In this document: piece after piece, positions 30,700 to 62,778 of the stretch
Position numbering within the stretch: the first letter of the stretch is position 1
Layout of the letters: each line of letters opens with the position of its first letter
Assembly: GCF_020085105.1 (NCBI RefSeq)
Contig: NC_058052.1
Coordinates: 7,797,733-7,861,732 of the forward strand
Reading direction: 5' to 3'
Source of the DNA: Siniperca chuatsi
Taxonomy: Eukaryota; Chordata; Actinopteri; Centrarchiformes; Sinipercidae
DNA length: 64,000 bases
The notes under the pieces: model-generated
What the model saw: the letters and a program-made list of their open reading frames with translations, nothing else
Databases searched by the model: none
Told to the model about the DNA's origin: nothing
Translations under genes and position numbers: made by a program

Positions 30700-31130
30700 C
30701 TAGTCTTGCATAGCCAGACCTATCTCCACACTTCATTTCAGCGTTGTGCCAGCGCTGGGGAAAGGTCTGGCTGAACCATGGATGTATAATAAGACCTGGA
30801 TATGGCGATCAGCCTTGCTCCCAATTTTTTCCGGAGGCCACTCACGGTATTGCAGTGAAAAATTCCCCTGTGGCCCAAAATGTATTTTCCCCATAGGCCA
30901 CCATTATAAAAGAGACGTCTGTTGACAGGACACCTAAAACTGTAAACAAGGTCAATTATGACTCTTTCTATTGTGAATTTTTGATCCATGGAGGTTTTAT
31001 ATTTGTAAAACTTTCCTCAAGCCGAGAAAAGTGATTAAAAAAAATCTGTGACGTCATCACAAGGTAAAGTCTATGGGTCGAAACACTACTGTGCATATTC
31101 AGTGGGCCTCATACCCCGGAAGTAAACCCG
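30700..31130 (+). mobile_element. MITE-like element, copy 1 (3'-truncated), next to another inverted repeat
   Basis: From about 30778 it matches 56465-56790 over more than 300 bp in the same orientation, with shared blocks CCAATTTTTTCC, TTTTCCCCATAGGCCACCAT, TATAAAAGAGACG and AAGGTCAATTATGACTCTTT. Immediately upstream, AGCCAGACC and GGTCTGGCT (about 30712 and 30765) form a separate short inverted repeat, so elements may be nested here. The ORF at 30738-30989 on the minus strand is repeat-derived. Confidence 0.7.
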
Positions 31131-50984: not shown

Positions 50985-51730
50985 CTGAAGGCTGGAGGCC
51001 AAGAGTGGAGCTGCAGCTGGCATCTGAAGTTTGCAGGCAGAAGCAAAGGGTGGCTACCAAAGACCACAGGTGGAGGGTGGGACTGCAGCTGGCTGCCTCA
51101 AGCTGCAGGGTGAAAGCTGGGAACTCAGCTTGCTGTTGGAGGCTGGTGAATGTAAAGGCTGAGGCTGCATATCTCTGACAGAATCTACAGGTGGAGGCTG
51201 TGGGTGCAGGCACTGACAGTGGAAGGAGATGGCAACTGTAGGGTGGAGGCAGAGGCTAGATCTGGAGCTGGTTAAGAAAGGCTAGTGGAGGGTGGCAGAA
51301 GTTGCACGTGGAGAGGGGCTCTTCGCCTGGCTAGTGGAGGATGTAGGTGGAGGTTGGGGCTACAGTTGATGGCAGAGACTGGAGGCAAGTAGCTCCTTAG
51401 TCCTGTAGCTGTCTGCCACAATCTGCCGGTGGAGGTGGCAAACTGCAGGTCGCTGGCAGAGGCTGTAGGAAGTTGCTGGAACCGTAGAGGGCTACTCCAG
51501 GTTGGAAGCAGAGGTTGGATCTGTAGCTGGCTGGAAAACGGTCTAGGTGGCAGAGGCTGTAGGTGGAGGTTTGGGTCGCAGCTATCGGTGCCAATCTCCA
51601 GGTGGAGGCTTTGGCTGTACGTTGCTGGCAGAGGCTGTAGTGGTTGACAGAGGTTGCAGATAGAACAGGTTCTTCAGCTGTTAGAGCCGGTAGAGCTGGT
51701 GGAACTTGTCTGGAAGAGGTTTTAGGTGGA
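50985..51730. repeat. degenerate G-rich tandem repeat upstream of polr1b
   Basis: Variants of GGTGGAGGCTG, CAGAGGCTGTAGG and GCTGCAGCTGG recur many times over about 750 bp, all with the G-rich strand on plus. The units differ in length and sequence, so the array is old. Open frames on both strands here reflect the repeat, not a gene. It begins about 430 bp upstream of the polr1b start codon. Confidence 0.75.
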
Positions 51731-54300
51731 ACGAGGCTTCACAAGTACAGTAAAAGCAACAAACAACCCTGGATAATGTGAATTTCATTCCACAATTTCC
51801 TGCAAAAAATTCTACTTTCCCCTAGAAAATGACATTACTTTTCATGATTGTGTAGACCTATTAGACATGGAGTTTGTTGTCCCCTAAAATTTCCCCATAA
51901 AAGGTTCAGATTAACCTGCCAACGCCCCTCAAAGCTATGTCACTGGGCCCCTATTAAACCCTGATCCTCACACACTCTGTGCAGTGTCTACAGATTTTTG
52001 GTGCAGGAATATTATCTGGCATATATTATCAGCACAAAAATGAAATGATGGTCTTAGAATTTTGACACAGGAGCCTTCTTCAGGAACAGGGCCAAGATCA
52101 GGTAATAAAGCAGGACCCACCTTAAGGCCGTTAAATACACATATTAATGTATAAAAGCACATTTCTTCTTCGGACTTGTGGTAGTGTATTAGTTAATACT
52201 CTTCAATTTGTCAGATAATCCACAATCCTCTCTCTGACCTTTAAAACGAACTGAGGCAGATGTGAACCTACAGTAAATGTAATTACACACATTTGGTTGA
52301 CACTTACTTTTGCTTGCTTATACAATCATACATGATGGGAGATGTTAACTTAGAAATGAATACATTGATCGGAACAGTAGAAATCTCTACACTCTATGGC
52401 CTAATACCTCACTTAAAGGTGCTATCGATAACATTGATAACATCCAGCCACGAGATGACGCACTTCCCCCCCCCTTCCATTCCATTCCAGTGGTTGCCAG
52501 TTCATTGCACAACCTGCATATTTCATGGCCGAGTGGAGTGAGACTCAGTCATATCAAGTGATGAATCTTATGTGGTAAAGTAATTTTGCAACATATAGCT
52601 ATACCTTAGCTATAGCACATGACATGACATGAGACAGACAGCTACAGTAAAAGTTAACGTTAGCTAGCGGTAGTGTTAGCGTTGTGTTGACCTTACATTC
52701 TTGCTGAAAACAAATCTCACAGCAGATTGTAAAAAACAGCTTAGCGCCACACAGCAGCAATGGCTACAGCAAGACAGGACAACTGTATGACCATGTCAGT
52801 ATTTTCAGATTTTTATATTAATGTGAGTACCATAGTTGTTGAGCTCAATGCAGCTGGCTACATGGCTAGCTAGCCACAAGTACCTCATCAAAGTTATTGT
52901 TGTTCGGATGTTTAAGCTAAGATAGCTAATATGTGCTAATGTCAGTGTCCGTTTTTTCCACACTAACTGGCAGCTATACTACGTGATACCAACATCGTTA
53001 TACTATTGGCTCACAAGCCTTGTTAGAAGCAGGAACCAAACAGACATCTCACACAGAGATAAACAAAACATTCATTTTGGACCCGTCAAAATTTCTAAAA
53101 TGATTAATTCACAATCATAATTTTTTTTTAGGAAAAGTGATACTTTTATTCCGCACCTTTCTAAAAGCTCTGTGGATGTTTTTTGTTTTTTTTTTGTTAT
53201 TTGTAATATTTGTCTATATAAAAATATTATCAATTTGGCAAACTTGTTAGCAAACAGACAACATTAGCATTCATCTGAAGTACTCTGGTCACCTGGTAAA
53301 TGTAAGTCCAATATTCACTCTCCTTTGACTTCTGTTTTGCTCTCTAACATCTCGTAAGAAAAATATCTGGCTCTTTAGCTGCTGAATGCTCCACTATGTT
53401 CCCTTGCTAGTTACTAACTTTGTCTGTCTGTTGTTTGGTGCAGTATTTTCATTTCTCTAAAAATCCACTTCTGTATTTACCACAGAGAAAATGGTTTGAA
53501 ATAGTTTGGAATCATATTTGTCTCCTTTCGTCTCAAGTTCACAAGTGAGATAAGCTATCTCATTATCTCAGAATAGAAAGAAAGTGTTTTCTTGTGATAA
53601 CGGCTTAGTTATCAAAATTCTGTTTTCTCAAAATTAGAAGTCTTTTTCCAAGCAATTGCTTAAAAAAATATCTAATTTCTTGGAAATTGTAATTACAGTT
53701 ATGATTTTTGTTTTGTTTCTGTGATCTCTTTATTGCTTAAGTTGACTGTGGTTCGCCTGCCTACTGCAGGCTACATTACTGAAAATACTTGTAAAAAATG
53801 CCTTCTTTGGACAGGGTTGGTATGAAATAACCTCTTCAAATAATCAACAACCCTGGCTGATGCAGATGTGACATTTTAAATCTAATTACACACATTTGGT
53901 TCACACTTTTGTGTTTGCTACTAAGATCATATGGTACGATACTTAGAAGTTAACATTGATCAGTAGAAATCTCTAATCACTTAAAAATCATGTGTGCATT
54001 TATCTTAAACTTCAAAAACATGTACCACTTAGGTGATTTCTACAAGAGACAGCAAAGAGTTGACTCAGTTTTGTCAATTGGGCTTTTGGTTTGAAATGTT
54101 TCTGGTATGAAATCGAACCAAAACATTCATCTTTTAAATCAAAAGTCGGATATGTTTTTCTTTGAAGAAAGTTCATCATGTCACTCCAAAACATGTTACT
54201 GTAAGTGTAGTCCCAAAACAAATGGACTAATGTTTATTAATATATTTTACAAAAAGCACACGTAGAATCAAAACCATTTATATTGAGACAGAACAAGACG
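51731..54300. other. intergenic region with repeat fragments
   Basis: No gene recognised. The stretch 52415-53060 has features of an old repeat (GGTGCTATCGATAACATTGA, then a C-run), and 53255-53470 is an inverted copy of the family at 16910 and 24415. Confidence 0.5.
53255..53470 (-). mobile_element. dispersed repeat, copy C (inverted)
   Basis: The reverse complement carries the same blocks as copies A and B: AATGCTAATGTTG, AAAGGAGAGTGAATATTGGA, AGCATTCAGCAGCTAAAGAG and a CAGACAGACAAAGTTAG block shared with copy A. Confidence 0.5.
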
Positions 54301-54379: not shown

Positions 54380-54455
54380 TCAAGACGTTTCGGCTCCCAT
54401 CCGGAAGTCATTCACAATTGAGAATGACTTCCGGATGGGAGCCGAAACGTCTTGA
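54380..54455. repeat. perfect 34-bp inverted repeat (76-bp hairpin)
   Basis: The arm 54380-54413 (starting TCAAGACGTTTCGGCTCCCA, ending GTCATTC) and its exact reverse complement at 54422-54455 are separated by eight bases that contain the palindrome CAATTG. The hairpin lies about 150 bp upstream of the broken repeat-protein gene. The sequence resembles a foldback repeat seen in many fish genomes. Confidence 0.9.
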
Positions 54456-54611
54456 AGGATCAGCGGTCTGCCGCAGAGTTTCCAGAAGTGCTCACTGGGT
54501 CACAGTACAAGCGGGACATTAGATACATAGCTGATTCTGTATCCGTTGGATCAATGGACACAACTAGACTCAGGACTTTTTCTCTCACACATTGACATTT
54601 TATATAAAAGT

Positions 54612-55724
54612 GCACAGGTTAACCCTCCAGAGACTGCTAAACCTCAGCAGTCTGTCAAGGCCCCAACCCGTCAGGGTGTCAGCAAAAAGGGCCAGGCAGG
54701 GAAAGGGGACCTAAACTGCACACAGTCGGAGACAGTGCCCAACTATTGCATCCTCCAAAGGCAACCCAAAGATGCTCCACAGCAGGCTGCTACACCTGAG
54801 GGTGTACCACAACAAACAGGTGCACCTTCAGGTGCTCCACAGCAGACTGAACTGACAAGAGGCCCTGTCCAGAGGAAAAAGCTTTGGACACCACCACCAC
54901 CACCGTACCGTACCCTTTTGAAAGCACCTTCAGGTGAGGTTAAAGCCAATCATTTTAAAAGGGGTCCTGTCCAACAGCTTTGCACAGCACCACGCCACCG
55001 CACCCCTCAGTGTGCACCTGCCAAACCACAGCAGGCAGACAGGGTCAAGGCTTGTGATGGGGTTGAGGCTTTCCCCAACTCAGCTGCTAAAGCTGAGATG
55101 GAGCAGTTAAAGGAAACGCTCCAAAGAAACAACACTCTCCATGATGAGGTTATGCTGAAGAGGGTAAGCAAGATAATGGACCTGGAGCTTCAGCTTTTAG
55201 AGTAGAAGACCACTGAAGCTGAGTGTAGTAAAGATCCCTATATTCTTATATTTTGGTCTTTTCCTTTCTTCACCTACATCACTTCCTTTACCTCACTTCC
55301 TTTCCTTCCCTCATTTACCTGACTGAGTAGACCTGATCACTCCTTATTTAAAGACTGGTAGTTCTGGTAAGAGGCATTTATTTACTCTTTATTTCCTATT
55401 CTATGTCAATGTTAGTTTGACTGAGAATCTTAATTAATTATTATTACCTTAAGATTGACATGTGACTCTAACTTGAGTTATATTGTGTTAAGTTTACTCT
55501 TGTATTTGTTCTGTTTCAACAGCCCATGTGTGTTTGTCCTCCCTTTAAGCTCCTGAATGCGATTACTTTGAGTTTATAGAGAATATACATTTTGTTCAGC
55601 TGAATGAAGTTTCCTGGCTTTATTTCAAGCATTCTGATCAGATGCCCATGATGATAGTCTACATATCCTTTTGAACCTCCTACATAACACTGAGGCTCTC
55701 CAGAAGCTGCAGCAGATGGAGAAA
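54612..55724 (+). pseudogene. truncated copy of the repeat-protein gene at 57206, interrupted by a solo LTR
   Basis: Homology to 57354-58770 starts abruptly at TGCACAGGTTAACCC. This copy keeps the SVKAPTRQGVSKKGQAGKGD region, only three 10-residue units, one KLWTPPPPPYR motif and a shortened coiled-coil part. It lacks a usable ATG upstream in the same frame, has an internal deletion between the FP and AEMEQLKE segments, and meets TAG at 55203-55205 where the intact gene reads codons for Ala and Thr. Homology then runs to CTGAG at 55219-55223, is broken by the LTR, and resumes for about 30 bp at 55690. The copy is therefore a pseudogene or a decayed paralogue. Which disabling change came first cannot be told. 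Confidence 0.8.
55224..55689. mobile_element. solo LTR, 466 bp, with 5-bp target-site duplication
   Basis: The insertion begins TGTAGTAAAGATCCC and ends ACATAACA, the TG...CA ends typical of LTRs. CTGAG occurs directly before it (55219-55223) and directly after it (55690-55694), while the uninterrupted relative near 58732 has this sequence once. It has no ORF and no second LTR nearby, so recombination between two LTRs probably removed the interior. The superfamily is not determined; five-base duplications occur in several LTR groups. Confidence 0.85.
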
Positions 55725-55736
55725 TAAAATATGCTT

Positions 55737-56460
55737 TTTAATTGTAGAACATGTACTTATTAAAGTACAGACTTGGTCATACCATAGACTGTTTGGTCAT
55801 ACTCCCTCTCTCTCTTTATTTTGGTCTTTTTATAAACTTGTTGGGAAGTCGACAACATAACTTTGTCTTAACGTTGTTAAACATTATAAGAAACGTCCAC
55901 ATCTTGACCTAATATTGGTCCTAGAGTCATCCAGTATATATTTAGGCTACACAAGTTAGCAGCCTGAGGTCAGCATTGCAAACTCCACTGTAACATTTTG
56001 TAAACCATCTAAAAGTACTACTCCCAAAAAAAACAGGAATTTTTGGCACCTGAACCTATATGCTATAACAATGAAATCCTGAAAGTTTCGATAAAACTGA
56101 ATGAGATAAGCTGTGCTAGCAGCTCTGTGGGGCTGTACTCAGGCACAGCGGTGCTTTGAGCTAATGCACATGTTTACCATGTTCACCATCTTAATTTAGT
56201 GTGTTAGCATAAAATTTGCTAGTTATCACTGAACACATTGGCTGCAGTGGTCTGTGTGGCTGTGGGGCAAGAGGGGTCTGTGAGCGTGACTGGCCGGCTG
56301 GCTAGCTAGTTACCCACGCAGGCGCTTGTGGAGCTTCTCAGCTCCGAAAATGTTGGAGCACATTTTCAAAAACTAGTGTGGTGCTAGAACCATCTGCCTC
56401 GCAGTCCGCTATTGGACAAGCTGAAGAGACACAATGCATTTTGGGGTGGTTGAGAATGTG
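55737..56460. other. spacer between the broken and intact repeat-protein genes
   Basis: No coding or RNA feature seen. AT-rich, with one ATTGGTC and several short inverted motifs of no clear role. Confidence 0.5.
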
Positions 56461-56464
56461 CAGT

Positions 56465-56925
56465 AAGCTCACGGCCATGGACATATGATAAGAACTGGAT
56501 ATGGCGCCGCCGCTCAGCCTTGCAGCCAATTTTTTCCAGTGGCCACTCGCGGTATCACAAGGAAAAATCCCCCTGCGGCCCAAAAGGCATTTTCCCCATA
56601 GGCCACCATTATAAAAGAGACGACTGTAAAACTGTTGACAGGACACCACAAACTGCAAACAAGGTCAATTATGACTCTTTCTATTATGTAATTTGTGATG
56701 CATGGAGGCTTTATATTTGTAAAACGTTCCTCGAGTCATCATCATCACAATGTAAAGACTATGGGCCGAGTGGGAACTCGTGGGCGGGGCCAGCAGGAGA
56801 AATACTACTGCACATACTGGGTCGCATAACCTAGAAAACGTTGGCATATGCGCCAGGTGAGCAATTTTCATTGGAATGAATAGGCACCATTTTGGGGTCC
56901 GGTATCCAGTTCTCATACTCATTTT
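56465..56925 (+). mobile_element. MITE-like element, copy 2, with both inverted ends
   Basis: The left end ATAAGAACTGGATATGGCG and, on the minus strand from the right end, ATGAGAACTGGATACCGGA are similar inverted termini about 430 bp apart. The interior matches 30778-31090. The ORFs at 56338-56658 and 56520-56834 are derived from this element, not genes. Confidence 0.7.
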
Positions 56926-57205
56926 GATGTCATACCTAGTATGAATAGTACGTTAGTATGTGATTCTGAACACAGACTCTATTACATGATTCTCAGAGCA
57001 TATTGAAACACATGGTTGCCATGGTAAACATTTAAAAATACATAAAAAAACATAAAAGAGAAACATTCCATTCTATTTCCCATGATACATCATCAGAGAC
57101 ACATTCTAGAATCTTCAGTCTACAAGACTCCCACAAACTGTCAGACCAGTCACAAATACAAAGACACAGAGATCGACAGCAAACAGAAAGCGTCAAGTTT
57201 TCACG

Positions 57206-59089
57206 ATGGAGAAAACCAAAGACAAACAAAGAAAAAAAGGCAAGAACAAAGTGAAGGAAAACTTTATCCAGCCAGCAGAGGAGGTATCAATCACCTTTGG
57301 TTCCTGGAATAAAAGGATTTCCACTCTCCGCAGGCAGAACGAGGCAGCTATGTCTGCACAGGTTAACCCTCCAGAGACTGCTAAACATCAGCAGTCTGTC
57401 AAGGCCCCAACCCGTCAGGGTGTCAGCAAAAAGGGCCAGGCAGGGAAAGGGGACCTAAACTGCACACAGTCGGAGACAGTGCCCAAATTTTGCATCCTCC
57501 AAAGGCAACCTGAGGATGCTCCACAGCAGGCTGCTGCACCCGAAGATGTTCCACAGCAGGCTGCTACACCCACAGGTGCTCCACAGAAGGCTGCTGCACC
57601 AGAAGGTGCTCCACAGCAGGCTGCTACACCCACAGGTGCTCCACAGCAGGCTGCTGCACCAGAAGATGCTCCACAGCAGGCTGCTGCACCAGAAGATGTT
57701 CCACAGCAGGCTGCTACACCCAGAGGTGCTCCACAGAAGGCTGCTGCACCAGAAGGTGCTCCACAGCAGGCTGCTACACCCACAGGTGCTCCACAGCAGG
57801 CTGCTACACCAGAAGATGCTCCACAGCAGGCTGCTGCACCCACAGGTGCTCCACAGCAGGCTGCTACACCAGAAGATGCTCCACAGCAGGCTGCTACACC
57901 TGAGGGTGTACCACAACAAGCGGGTACACCTTCAGGTGCTACACAGCAGACTGAATTGACAAGGGGCCCTGTCCAGAGGAAAAAGCTTTGGACACCACCA
58001 CCACCCTACCGTACCCCTCTGAGAGAACATTCAGTTGAGGTTAAGGACACTGCTTTTAAAAGGGGCCCTGTCCAACAGAAAAAGCTTTGGACACCTCCAC
58101 CACCCTACCACACCCGGGTTAAAACCACTGATTTTAAAAGGGGTCCTGTCCAACAGAAAAAGCTTTGGACACCTCCACCACCCTACCGCACCCAGGTTAA
58201 AGCCAATAATTTTAAAAGGGGTCCTGTCCAACAGCTTTGCACAGCACCACGCCACCACACCCCTCAGTGTGCACCTGCCAAACCACAGCAGGCAGACAGG
58301 GTCAAGGCTTGTGATGGGGTTGAGGCTTTCCCCCAGCATGCCACGATTCACGTTCCTGAGCTCGAGCCACAGCAGCTCAGGAGTAGAGAGACGGAGCAGA
58401 CCACCGAGCTCGAGAGGGCAAACGAGGCTTTAGCAGCTCTGCTGGAGCAGTTACAAGAAACGCCGGCCAAGGCCTGTGATGGGGTAGAGGCTTCCCCCCA
58501 GGAGGCCAGAATTTACGTCTCTGAGCTCGAGCTTCAGCAGCTCAGAAACAGAAAGACAGAGCAGACCACCAAGCTCAAGAAGGAGAATGGAGCTTTAGCA
58601 GCTGAGATGGAGCAGTTAAAGGAAACGCTCCAAAGAAACAACGCTCTCCATGATGACATTATGCTGAAGAGGGTGAACAAGATCATGGACCTGGAGCTTC
58701 AGCTTTTAGCGACGAAGACCACTGAAGCTGAGGCTCTCCAGAAGCTGCAGCAGATGGAGAAACACCTTCAGAGGCAAAAGGAGAGCCGGAAAGAACTGGA
58801 CGTGTGCCTGGCCCAGCAAACAGAGGAAAACAACAGACTGACGGCTGCGCTGACCCTGACACAGAGAGAGCTGGAGAGTCAACAGCTGCAGTGGCAGGAG
58901 GAGCGGTCCCGTCTCCTCCAGTCCCTCAGCGACATCCACCACACCCTGCAGGAGGAGGAGAAAGCTCAGAAGACAAGATGGGATGGGATGACGGACAAGA
59001 TTGTCGACCTAGAACAGCAGATGAAAAAGATCGACAAAAAGCCTAAAAGACCCTCTCTGAGGAGAAGATTCCTCCAGTTATTCAAGTGA
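57206..59089 (+). CDS. uncharacterised repeat protein with PPPPY motifs and coiled coil (627 codons, intronless ORF)
   Basis: I do not recognise the family. The ORF starts at an ATG in fair context (CACGATGG) and ends TGA. The N-terminus is strongly basic (MEKTKDKQRKKGKNK). Residues 105-244 are fourteen tandem 10-residue units of the type APQQAATPEG. Three RGPVQ-KKLWTPPPPY blocks follow (PPPPY at about 264-268, 297-301 and 323-327); PPxY is the classic WW-domain ligand. A 55-residue segment beginning KACDGVEA occurs twice (about 367 and 422). The rest to about residue 605 is Glu/Gln/Leu/Lys-rich with heptad character, predicting a coiled coil, and the end KKPKRPSLRRRFLQLFK is basic and amphipathic. 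No signal peptide or membrane segment is seen. A broken copy lies 2.6 kb upstream. A second possible start is Met49, just where homology to that copy begins. An intracellular scaffold role is conceivable but unproven. Confidence 0.7.
   Translation: MEKTKDKQRKKGKNKVKENFIQPAEEVSITFGSWNKRISTLRRQNEAAMSAQVNPPETAKHQQSVKAPTRQGVSKKGQAGKGDLNCTQSETVPKFCILQRQPEDAPQQAAAPEDVPQQAATPTGAPQKAAAPEGAPQQAATPTGAPQQAAAPEDAPQQAAAPEDVPQQAATPRGAPQKAAAPEGAPQQAATPTGAPQQAATPEDAPQQAAAPTGAPQQAATPEDAPQQAATPEGVPQQAGTPSGATQQTELTRGPVQRKKLWTPPPPYRTPLREHSVEVKDTAFKRGPVQQKKLWTPPPPYHTRVKTTDFKRGPVQQKKLWTPPPPYRTQVKANNFKRGPVQQLCTAPRHHTPQCAPAKPQQADRVKACDGVEAFPQHATIHVPELEPQQLRSRETEQTTELERANEALAALLEQLQETPAKACDGVEASPQEARIYVSELELQQLRNRKTEQTTKLKKENGALAAEMEQLKETLQRNNALHDDIMLKRVNKIMDLELQLLATKTTEAEALQKLQQMEKHLQRQKESRKELDVCLAQQTEENNRLTAALTLTQRELESQQLQWQEERSRLLQSLSDIHHTLQEEEKAQKTRWDGMTDKIVDLEQQMKKIDKKPKRPSLRRRFLQLFK
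57518..57937. repeat. coding minisatellite, 14 x 30 bp in perfect register
   Basis: Units follow GCTCCACAGCAGGCTGCTRC then ACCnnnnGRT with no length change over 420 bp. Units 1-4 (57518-57637) recur as units 6-9 (57668-57787), a higher-order duplication of 150-bp period. The broken copy near 54768-54857 has only three units. Confidence 0.95.
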
Positions 59090-59214: not shown

Positions 59215-59345
59215 CTTTGAATTGCCTCCCCCAAGGTTTCTTCCCTTTTGGGGAGTTTTCCTTGTCTTCTTAGAGAGCGTGGGCTGGACATACAATGTCT
59301 CAGAGGGCCTGTAGCCTTCTGAGACATTGTATGTAACTTTTGGGC
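59215..59345 (+). mobile_element. retroposon-like 3' tail after the repeat-protein gene
   Basis: CCCAAGGTTTCTTCCCTTTT and GGGGAGTTTTCCTTG, followed by a hairpin and TTTTGGGCAATA, resemble a very common teleost 3'-tail repeat that contains similar AAGGTTTCTTCC and TTGGGGAGTTTTTCCTT motifs. It begins about 125 bp after the stop codon and would be in the 3' UTR. Identification is from memory. Confidence 0.45.
59288..59334. repeat. 21-bp hairpin in the repeat-protein gene 3' region
   Basis: The arm ACATACAATGTCTCAGA (59288-59304) and its exact reverse complement (59318-59334) form 17 perfect pairs. Three more pairs and one G-T pair extend the stem, closing on the five-base loop CTGTA. Confidence 0.9.
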
Positions 59346-60535
59346 AATAACTTCTTTTAAATTTCCCTCATCCTCAAAAATCCTCAACCCTCCTTTCCTT
59401 CTGTTTATTGCAAAATATTAAATAATAAGAAAAATAATAATAATTGTATCTGAATCTGAATGCATTTTTCCATAGATATTTCTACGTTTCTCTACAGATA
59501 ACACTATATTTACAACATTGAACACAGCAGGACAGAGGAGAAAAGGTGTAAGAATTATATTATATTATACCTTTTCGTTTTTACAATGGCTTTCCATCTG
59601 TTGGTGTGGTTGTACAGTTTAAACATTGTTATAAATATTATGTTTTTCCTCGGTATTCATCATTTAAACTGATCTAACTTTGGAGTCAAATAATGACTTT
59701 GGATTATTATACTTTTAATTAAAATATTTCTTGTTATTTTTTCCATTAAATTGTTCACTTGTTTATCTTTTGTACGGTGGAAAATGGACCAAAACTTTGC
59801 CTTAAATTTGAAACATTTTAACGCCATTTTGCTTAAGAACCTGGGCTATATTTTTTAATATATTATATAATAATATATATATTATACATGGCAAAATATA
59901 TTTTATCCATATTTCTACATTGCTCAGCTCTGAGTGGGTGTGAGGGAAAACAATGAAGCTACCATGTATATTCTGCTGTGTGCTCGGTACTTGATGGGAA
60001 GTAGGTACATAAACATGCAGAGAGGTCAGGAGGTGGAGGTGACCATGACTGCATGGGCATGATACAATATAAGGAGCTAAATTGTATTTATCTGAGAGAA
60101 ATGGAGCATTCTGCCTACATCTATCCTTGTGTTGGTGACATTTCATCAGGTCATCATGCATACCTAACATGATGAATTATTTTACTGGACAGAAAAAAGA
60201 CAGAGAGACAGTGTTAAATGTTTGCAGTCCTGATGTTCTGTGTGTCTGATTATCATTCCTGGAGGAATTTCTTCTCCCGGTCAACTTAATTCAACCAGTG
60301 AAAGAAACCCCTGTGAGCTTCCTGTATCTGTGGCGCTGCATTGCCTGCTGTGATTGATGGTCATTGCTGCTCTCCTCCAGGTGGAGGCGCTGTAGGACAA
60401 ACAAACGCAAGTGGTTTGTGAAGGTTTTCAGGGCAACAAGAAAATAAAGCAGCAGCGATGAAGCAGTGGTAAGGTGTAAAGACACAGTTGTTGAGCGTGT
60501 GTGTCGTCACAGCGGTGGGCTGAACAGCAGTAGGA
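59346..60535. other. intergenic, AT-rich
   Basis: No gene recognised. Contains AT-rich palindromic runs (59855-59890) and a poor ORF at 59802-60170 on the minus strand that I reject as noise. Confidence 0.6.
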
Positions 60536-60540
60536 GTGTA

Positions 60541-60839
60541 AAAAGACTGGGTCCCGCTGTATTACTCAGGCTGCACTACAGCGTCTATTCACAGGCGCGA
60601 TCCCACTACTGAGCGGCACGGGGGCTTTGACCTGCTCCGTTTCCGACCTGGGCCGGTGCACCCCTCCTTAGACGACCTGGTGGTCCCGGGCTCCCCTAGG
60701 AGCACCATATCGATACCGAACTTAGTGCGGACACCCGATCGGCATAGTCCGCTGCAGCTCAGAGCTCCTGAGCTCAAACGATCCGCCAGCCTCAGCCTCC
60801 CGGTAGCTTGGATTACAGGCGCGCGCCACCGCACCCGGC
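60541..60839 (-). ncRNA. 7SL RNA (signal recognition particle RNA)
   Basis: The minus strand from 60839 begins GCCGGGTGCGGTGGCGCGCG and follows vertebrate 7SL RNA over the whole length, about 299 nt. The Alu domain is at the 5' end (GGGAGGCTGAGGCTGG). The S domain shows GCCGATCGGGTGTCCGCACT, then AAGTTCGG, GGACCACCAGGT, CTAAGGAGGGGTG and CCGGCCCAGGTCGGAAACGG. The SRP54-binding helix 8 region reads AGCAGGTCAAAG and then TCAGTAGTGGGATCGCG. GGAG of the helix 6 loop is present, though the sequence around it differs from human. A run of five T (60544-60540) ends the gene, as for RNA polymerase III. With SRP proteins this RNA targets ribosomes to the ER. Complete conserved elements plus an upstream ATF site argue for an active gene, not a pseudogene. 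The ORFs on both strands here are artefacts. Confidence 0.97.
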
Positions 60840-61507: not shown

Positions 61508-62477
61508 CCATGGGCGGACTGCTGTTCAGCCTCTGGTTGGCGGCTCTCTGCGCAGTTGGATGTAGTAAATGGCTTTTGGGTGGCTTCCTAAAGGGTGTTT
61601 TAGCCTTATGTAGTAGTCATTGGACTGAATGGACGAGCAGCAGCGTCCGCGGTGGTTCTTCCATGCTCCGCACGTGGTATGGCGATAAGGCCACTGTAAT
61701 GGAGGGAAAAGAACCTGACTTTAACCAGTGAGCTCGGTGCTCTCCCCACAGACTGTAGCATGAGTCTCCTCGTTGAGTCTGCCAAGTCGAAGACTGGTTG
61801 TCTAAGGAACTCCTGGAGAACCAAGTTTCCAGATGGATGAATAAGGTGAGTGGTTCTTTGACCAGGGGGTACCATAACACATTCGTTTATAATATTGATA
61901 TAAACAGAAGTAAATACAATTATATCAATATATAAATGCAAGTTTTTACACTAATTTTGTGTTAATCCCAAAACAAATAAAAGCATGCTGACACTGTACA
62001 GAACTACTTGAACTGACCACCTCCTTTTTTATTTGTTTACCTTTTGAAAATTCTCTAAATTAGATCTTCAGACTTCATGATGGCCTGAATGGTGTTGAAA
62101 TACAATTGGCTGGCTTTTAAATACATGTGAAATGTGTGTGGTTGGTAGCTACAGTTGTGAACATCTGCGTGCAATCAAAGTATTGATTACAGTGACTGTG
62201 ATCTTCCTGTGTGTTCATGAGACTTAAACAGAACAAACACACATTAAATATTTATAACAACATACAAAAATGAACTGTAAAGGAAAATGACCCACTTTAC
62301 TGTTTCAGGATCACACTAAAGATGGATGCAGCGGCCACCTCCAGGCTTCTCAGAGCACTGAAGGAACACAGTTTCAAAACAGGCTGAGTACTGTATTCCT
62401 ACCATGAGTCTGCAGCCATGAGCTGATGGTGAGTGTCAGGATGTGATGCCACAGAGTGATATTCTGTGAAAACCAAT

Positions 62478-62550
62478 ATGCTACTATGATGATTCACAAG
62501 ACTAGAGTCTCTGATTATGCCATGAAGCTCTTTCACAGTGCACTGAGCAT
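62478..62550 (+). ncRNA. C/D-box snoRNA 1, 28S rRNA 2'-O-methylation guide (SNORD52-like)
   Basis: C box ATGATGA at 62486-62492, D' box CTGA at 62511-62514, degenerate C' box near 62521-62527 and D box CTGA at 62543-62546. The short terminal stem ATGC/GCAT closes at 62478 and 62550. The guide before D', GACTAGAGTC, is complementary to the GACTCTAGTC segment of 28S rRNA; the fifth base before D' would direct methylation of a U. The arrangement recalls human SNORD52, though I name that from memory. Guided enzyme: fibrillarin, in the nucleolus. Confidence 0.8.
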
Positions 62551-62699
62551 GCATATTACTGATTCTCAATACAAGCTGCAAAGAGTAGAACTGGTTCTAA
62601 TACTGTTTTCTCTGTACTCACCAGGTGTATAGGGAGAGTAGATGGAGACTGCTCTTCTAGGTAAGTCTGGCATCTCAAAGCCTCTGTTCTGTAATACTG

Positions 62700-62778
62700 T
62701 TATGTGGAATGATGATTTCATAGACTAGAGTCTCTGAGAAAATCATGAAGTTGTTTTCACAGTGCACTGACCACATAA
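62700..62778 (+). ncRNA. C/D-box snoRNA 2, paralogue of snoRNA 1
   Basis: C box ATGATGA at 62709-62715, D' box CTGA at 62734-62737, degenerate C' box near 62744-62750 and D box CTGA at 62767-62770. The terminal stem TTATGTGG (62700-62707) with CCACATAA (62771-62778) is a perfect 8 bp, stronger than in snoRNA 1. It shares with snoRNA 1 the D' guide GACTAGAGTCTCTGA and the D-side segment TTTCACAGTGCACTGA, while the rest differs. Both guides are therefore under constraint after an intron-by-intron duplication. Confidence 0.87.

Follow-up and report, generated by a model that had tools for sequence, protein, structure and literature searches.

We identified, at positions 57206–59089 of the window (the whole 64,000-nucleotide stretch of DNA analysed), a reading frame that is very probably a real, so far uncharacterised vertebrate (fish-like) gene. 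It had been called a gene in an earlier, sequence-only reading, and this is well supported by codon choice in its C-terminal tail and moderately by codon choice in residues 1–49. Our tentative reading, held with somewhat less than even confidence, is a modular coiled-coil docking gene whose product may present an arm with PPPPY motifs to WW-domain proteins.

Reading frame and repeat organization

The frame proposed earlier (57206–59089, 627 residues) was confirmed as a single plus-strand open reading frame (ORF), unbroken from ATG to stop. Its start codon lies in the context TTCACGATGG, with A at −3 and G at +4. Upstream there are an in-frame stop at 57107 and a single out-of-frame ATG at 57082, and ATTAAA signals occur 3' of the ORF at 59417, 59718 and 59745. 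The longest ATG-initiated ORF across 60 order-2 Markov windows had no more than 256 residues, versus 627 observed, under a null that takes no account of repeats. Because the frame is continuous, the coding sequence appears to lie in one exon. A crude consensus scan of the window (19 donors and 193 acceptors, the latter listed up to 57400) allows an alternative splice between a donor at 56857 and an acceptor at 57334, by which the ATG would be lost. The parts of the gene are as follows.

57206..57511, plus strand: N-terminal basic, Lys-rich part (aa 1–102), net charge +12, short predicted helix at aa 31–53
57518..57967, plus strand: decapeptide array, 14 clear units and a degenerate 15th, predicted disordered
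57962..58240, plus strand: RGPVQ(Q/R)KKLWTPPPPY blocks, three complete and a truncated fourth (RGPVQQLC)
57995..58009, plus strand: PPPPY motif 1 (aa 264–268)
58094..58108, plus strand: PPPPY motif 2 (aa 297–301)
58172..58186, plus strand: PPPPY motif 3 (aa 323–327)
58301..58465, plus strand: 165-bp (55-aa) duplication, first copy
58466..58630, plus strand: 165-bp (55-aa) duplication, second copy, continuing into a long predicted helix
58631..59086, plus strand: non-repetitive C-terminal helical tail (aa 476–627), with a basic predicted helix at its end

Four layers of duplication had been claimed for this locus. Three of them, the decapeptides, the PPPPY blocks and the 55-residue repeat, were found, but the fourth, a whole-gene copy, was not. 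The 14 clear decapeptides span 57518–57937 and have mostly the consensus APQQAA(A/T)P(E/T)(D/G); Tandem Repeats Finder (TRF) reported a period of 30 with 14.6 copies. Inside the array there is also a higher-order repeat of 150 bp, or 5 decapeptides, with 90.5% identity across 296 bp. The KLWTPPPPY blocks had been described as about 30 residues long, a fair figure given spacings of 99 bp (block 1 to 2) and 78 bp, or 26 aa (block 2 to 3). The two copies of the 165-bp duplication are 81% identical over 164 nt.

Coding potential

Synonymous codon choice was scored with a table trained on four ORF pieces of the neighbouring P450, NANP-like and RPA2 genes, which come from this same window and may contain some non-coding bases at their ends. 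The tail (C-terminal 152 codons) scored 0.247. The four training pieces, scored on their own training data, gave 0.20–0.50, and background 300-nt stretches (n = 3000) averaged −0.23, with the 99th percentile at 0.06. The reading frame of the tail was the best scoring of its six frames and was stop-free; the other five carried 3 to 10 stops. Among 17772 control frames of 456 nt, which overlap in steps of 15 and may include exons that are not annotated, none reached the score of the tail and none was stop-free. Likewise, none of 5000 synonymous redraws of the tail protein, matched to local base composition, reached the observed score. The tail is clearly coding.

Residues 1–49 are probably coding, their codon score being matched by 21 of 3000 synonymous redraws. 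The same proportion (21/3000) was obtained for residues 346–475, where the reading frame scored 0.087 versus up to 0.198 in other frames. Residues 50–102 were indistinguishable from redraws (328/3000). In the array the reading frame scored −0.145 versus up to 0.62 elsewhere, and in the PPPPY blocks −0.115 versus up to 0.13; in the array, the blocks and residues 346–475 alike, the better-scoring frames contain stops. Variation among array units by codon position (19, 18 and 17) gave no signature, and pN was 0.17 versus a pS of 0.22; both counts include the degenerate 15th unit, and the pN/pS pairs are non-independent. The open frame of the array was rejected as a sign of coding. It proves nothing, because the 30-bp unit keeps frames open, antisense included, and a 154-aa antisense ORF is present within the array. 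The middle of the protein is repeat-grown, and codon choice cannot decide coding there.

A partial, decayed copy upstream

The reported whole-gene copy was rejected: the stretch (54611–55724) is a fragment that lacks both ends, contains a stop codon and is interrupted by 466 bp.

54611..55223, plus strand: partial decayed copy, first piece, with a stop codon at 55203–55205
55224..55689, no strand assigned: 466-bp insert, starting with TGT, ending with ACA, CTGAG on both sides
55690..55724, plus strand: partial decayed copy, second piece, 35/35 identical to 58728–58762

The copy aligns with the gene solely between 57355 and 58762, so that approximately 49 codons are absent at its start and 108 at its end. 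It holds one PPPPY-type block (PPPPPY) versus three in the gene, and two clear decapeptides and a degenerate one versus 14 and a degenerate one. Neither 55-aa unit is complete in it. These units were probably lost from the copy, because they differ from each other by 19%, more than gene and copy do. The insert looks like a solo LTR, and blastn found no second match to it within the window.

Gene and copy are 96.4% identical (19 differences) over 528 compared nucleotides, taken from five segments that were chosen by hand, contain no gaps and were cut to whole codons. The comparison leaves out the 35-nt second piece, the deleted parts, a filler that sits at the 3' deletion, and the PPPPPY indel together with its flanking sequence. 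Of the differences, 4 are synonymous (119 sites) and 13 nonsynonymous (406 sites), a neutral proportion; the remaining two fall in the stop codon of the copy. Such divergence fits a dead copy but offers no hint that the gene is constrained. A 76-bp near-perfect palindrome (97.4%) is located at 54380–54455, ~155 bp upstream of the copy.

Signals of selection

In the reading frame of the 165-bp duplication, dS was 0.45 and dN 0.17 (Fisher p 0.028, from rounded counts), and one antisense frame had a ratio as low (0.42, with two stop-bearing codon pairs set aside). Differences per codon position were 9, 10 and 14, only a mild bias. The 18 amino-acid changes are not a low number, as 822 of 3000 random placements gave as many or fewer. 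Random placement created a stop in 1999/3000 cases; none was observed. Between PPPPY blocks 1 and 3 there were 4.5 synonymous and 1.5 nonsynonymous changes, between blocks 1 and 2 there were 3.5 and 2.5, and between blocks 2 and 3 one of each. Retention of PPxY in all three blocks, noted earlier, holds (3/3) and extends to the PPPPPY of the one block in the copy, but is weak evidence because the blocks are mutual duplicates with few differences per pair. Taken together, these tests are weak evidence that the gene is constrained.

Predicted structure

A single-sequence, monomeric AlphaFold2 model (mean pLDDT 54.5) had pLDDT below 50 over almost all of residues 54–387 and at least 90 in 116 of 627 residues. 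Helices were predicted at 31–53, 388–418, 431–502, 507–610 and 616–626, with ten-residue mean pLDDT mostly 88–96 in helices 431–502 and 507–610. The coiled coil of the sequence-only reading was borne out in part: besides the predicted helices, residues 476–612 have a heptad-like hydrophobic period (reached by 18/3000 shuffles), but such a period was not seen in residues 376–475 (783/3000). It was also not significant in residues 1–102 (684/3000). On this model, a mostly floppy protein would bear three docking motifs and end in a long rod.

A possible WW-docking arm and alternative readings

The three PPxY sites are three duplicates of one; none of 20000 composition shuffles had three or more (mean 0.038). 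The PPPPY motifs follow the PPxY rule for class I WW ligands, and the recruitment of WW proteins proposed earlier is a prediction from that motif. In the docking reading that we tentatively favour, the C-terminal ~180–240 residues would form a coiled-coil rod that oligomerises, and the disordered Q/A/P-rich arm before it would carry three spaced PPPPY motifs. These motifs could bind class I WW domains of NEDD4-family ligases or of YAP-type or WWC-type proteins, and oligomerisation would multiply the binding sites. The decapeptide array may serve as a spacer whose length varies as units of 30 bp and 150 bp are exchanged unequally. Should the WW reading hold, this locus would be a natural case of docking valency and spacer length varying by repeat copy number, with a partial copy of other repeat numbers adjoining the gene. 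Should only the gene reading hold, the locus is simply another uncharacterised coiled-coil gene rich in repeats.

An alternative is a structural coiled-coil gene, with a cytoskeletal or ciliary role for instance, whose two ends alone are functional and whose decapeptides and PPPPY blocks are repeat expansions tolerated in a disordered linker, with no WW partner. This is also quite possible. Such a gene would accommodate three observations: the coding signature peaks in the non-repetitive tail and is missing from array and blocks, repeat numbers differ between gene and copy (blocks, 3 versus 1; clear decapeptides, 14 versus 2), and the differences between the two look neutral. However, every one of the four blocks, three in the gene and one in the copy, has kept PPxY, duplicates though they are. 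A recently disabled or dying gene, its frame still open and its expression gone, as in the neighbouring copy, seems improbable: the adjoining copy is dead and their divergence is neutral, but the gene has 627 stop-free codons, a good start context, ATTAAA signals downstream and a tail that retains the codon signature. Proline runs can have other readers as well, since four-proline runs with basic flanks are recognized by several domain classes, and SH3, profilin or EVH1 partners might take the place of WW domains. We consider this quite improbable, as each of the three runs is closed by a Tyr and so matches PPxY exactly. Non-coding repeat DNA, open merely through its 30-bp unit, would be conceivable for the array by itself, where antisense is open too, but is scarcely credible for the locus and was rejected for the tail, which is non-repetitive, stop-free in this frame and of coding-type codon choice, with 0/17772 control frames reaching its score.

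Relation to known proteins

A Pfam profile search at E up to 1 gave one sub-threshold, unrelated match (E 0.35) and nothing else, and no relative was found among PDB sequences or in NCBIfam (built for prokaryotes) at E up to 1. Pattern matches of the whole protein in viral contigs (25) and of residues 476–627 in prokaryote contigs (42) included no confirmed case. A literature search found nothing on a teleost PPPPY coiled-coil protein, on the block peptide or on orphan teleost repeat genes.

Arrestin-type and other PPxY adaptors of NEDD4-family ligases carry several PPxY motifs on a flexible arm. The 627-aa protein has several such motifs on a predicted flexible arm too, but the Pfam search showed no arrestin or other known domain in it, and it has long predicted helices instead.

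In angiomotins, PPxY/LPxY motifs come before the coiled coil, and the same order, three PPPPY and then predicted helices, is found here. Pfam contains an angiomotin model; the angiomotin C-terminal domain was not detected in our protein at E up to 1. The protein ends in LQLFK, which does not resemble a PDZ ligand, so that it appears to lack a C-terminal PDZ-binding motif. Membership in the angiomotin family was rejected on these two grounds. In addition, unlike in angiomotins, the motifs are tandem copies of one PPPPY block that follows a decapeptide array.

The likeness that is left concerns architecture, a disordered arm with PPxY motifs and a rod next to it. AMOTL1 is described as a coiled-coil, Gln-rich protein with two PPxY motifs and one LPxY motif, in which changing both PPxY motifs strongly reduced NEDD4.2 binding and changing either alone did not (PMC3338797). 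For AMOT, three PPxY-type motifs are reported to bind NEDD4L WW domains, relatively independently of one another (PMC8368996). If that independence applies here, extra PPPPY blocks may add sites and not cooperative binding. A more specific version of the docking reading is a lineage-specific WW scaffold, of an origin separate from angiomotins, in which PPPPY valency and decapeptide reach vary rapidly by unequal exchange and the tail is constrained. The protein would then be a tunable, multivalent recruiter of ligases with WW domains or of YAP-type proteins. We regard this version as possible but unlikely.

Genomic surroundings

The neighbours of the gene are a CYP1B1-like P450, an N-acylneuraminate-9-phosphatase-like frame and the RNA polymerase I subunit RPA2. 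The source of the DNA is probably a vertebrate. By eye, 51000–51750 holds degenerate GGAGGCTG-type repeats, of which TRF and BLAST find pieces only. Between copy and gene lies an interspersed repeat (56475–56735) that is 83.5% identical to 30776–31021 over 261 columns; two more short matches lie close by (56270–56302 and 56742–56769). Just 3' of the gene there is a strong hairpin at 59288–59334 (85% inverted repeat; −41.7 kcal/mol for 59271–59360), and the sequence around it presumably resembles a recurrent fish 3' element. Further downstream, a metazoan SRP RNA was matched over its full length at 60541–60839 on the minus strand (276.6 bits, model 1–299 of 299). SNORD52 was found at 62705–62773 on the plus strand (58.3 bits), and a stretch at about 62450–62560 resembles it by eye, suggesting that a snoRNA host gene may run through this region.
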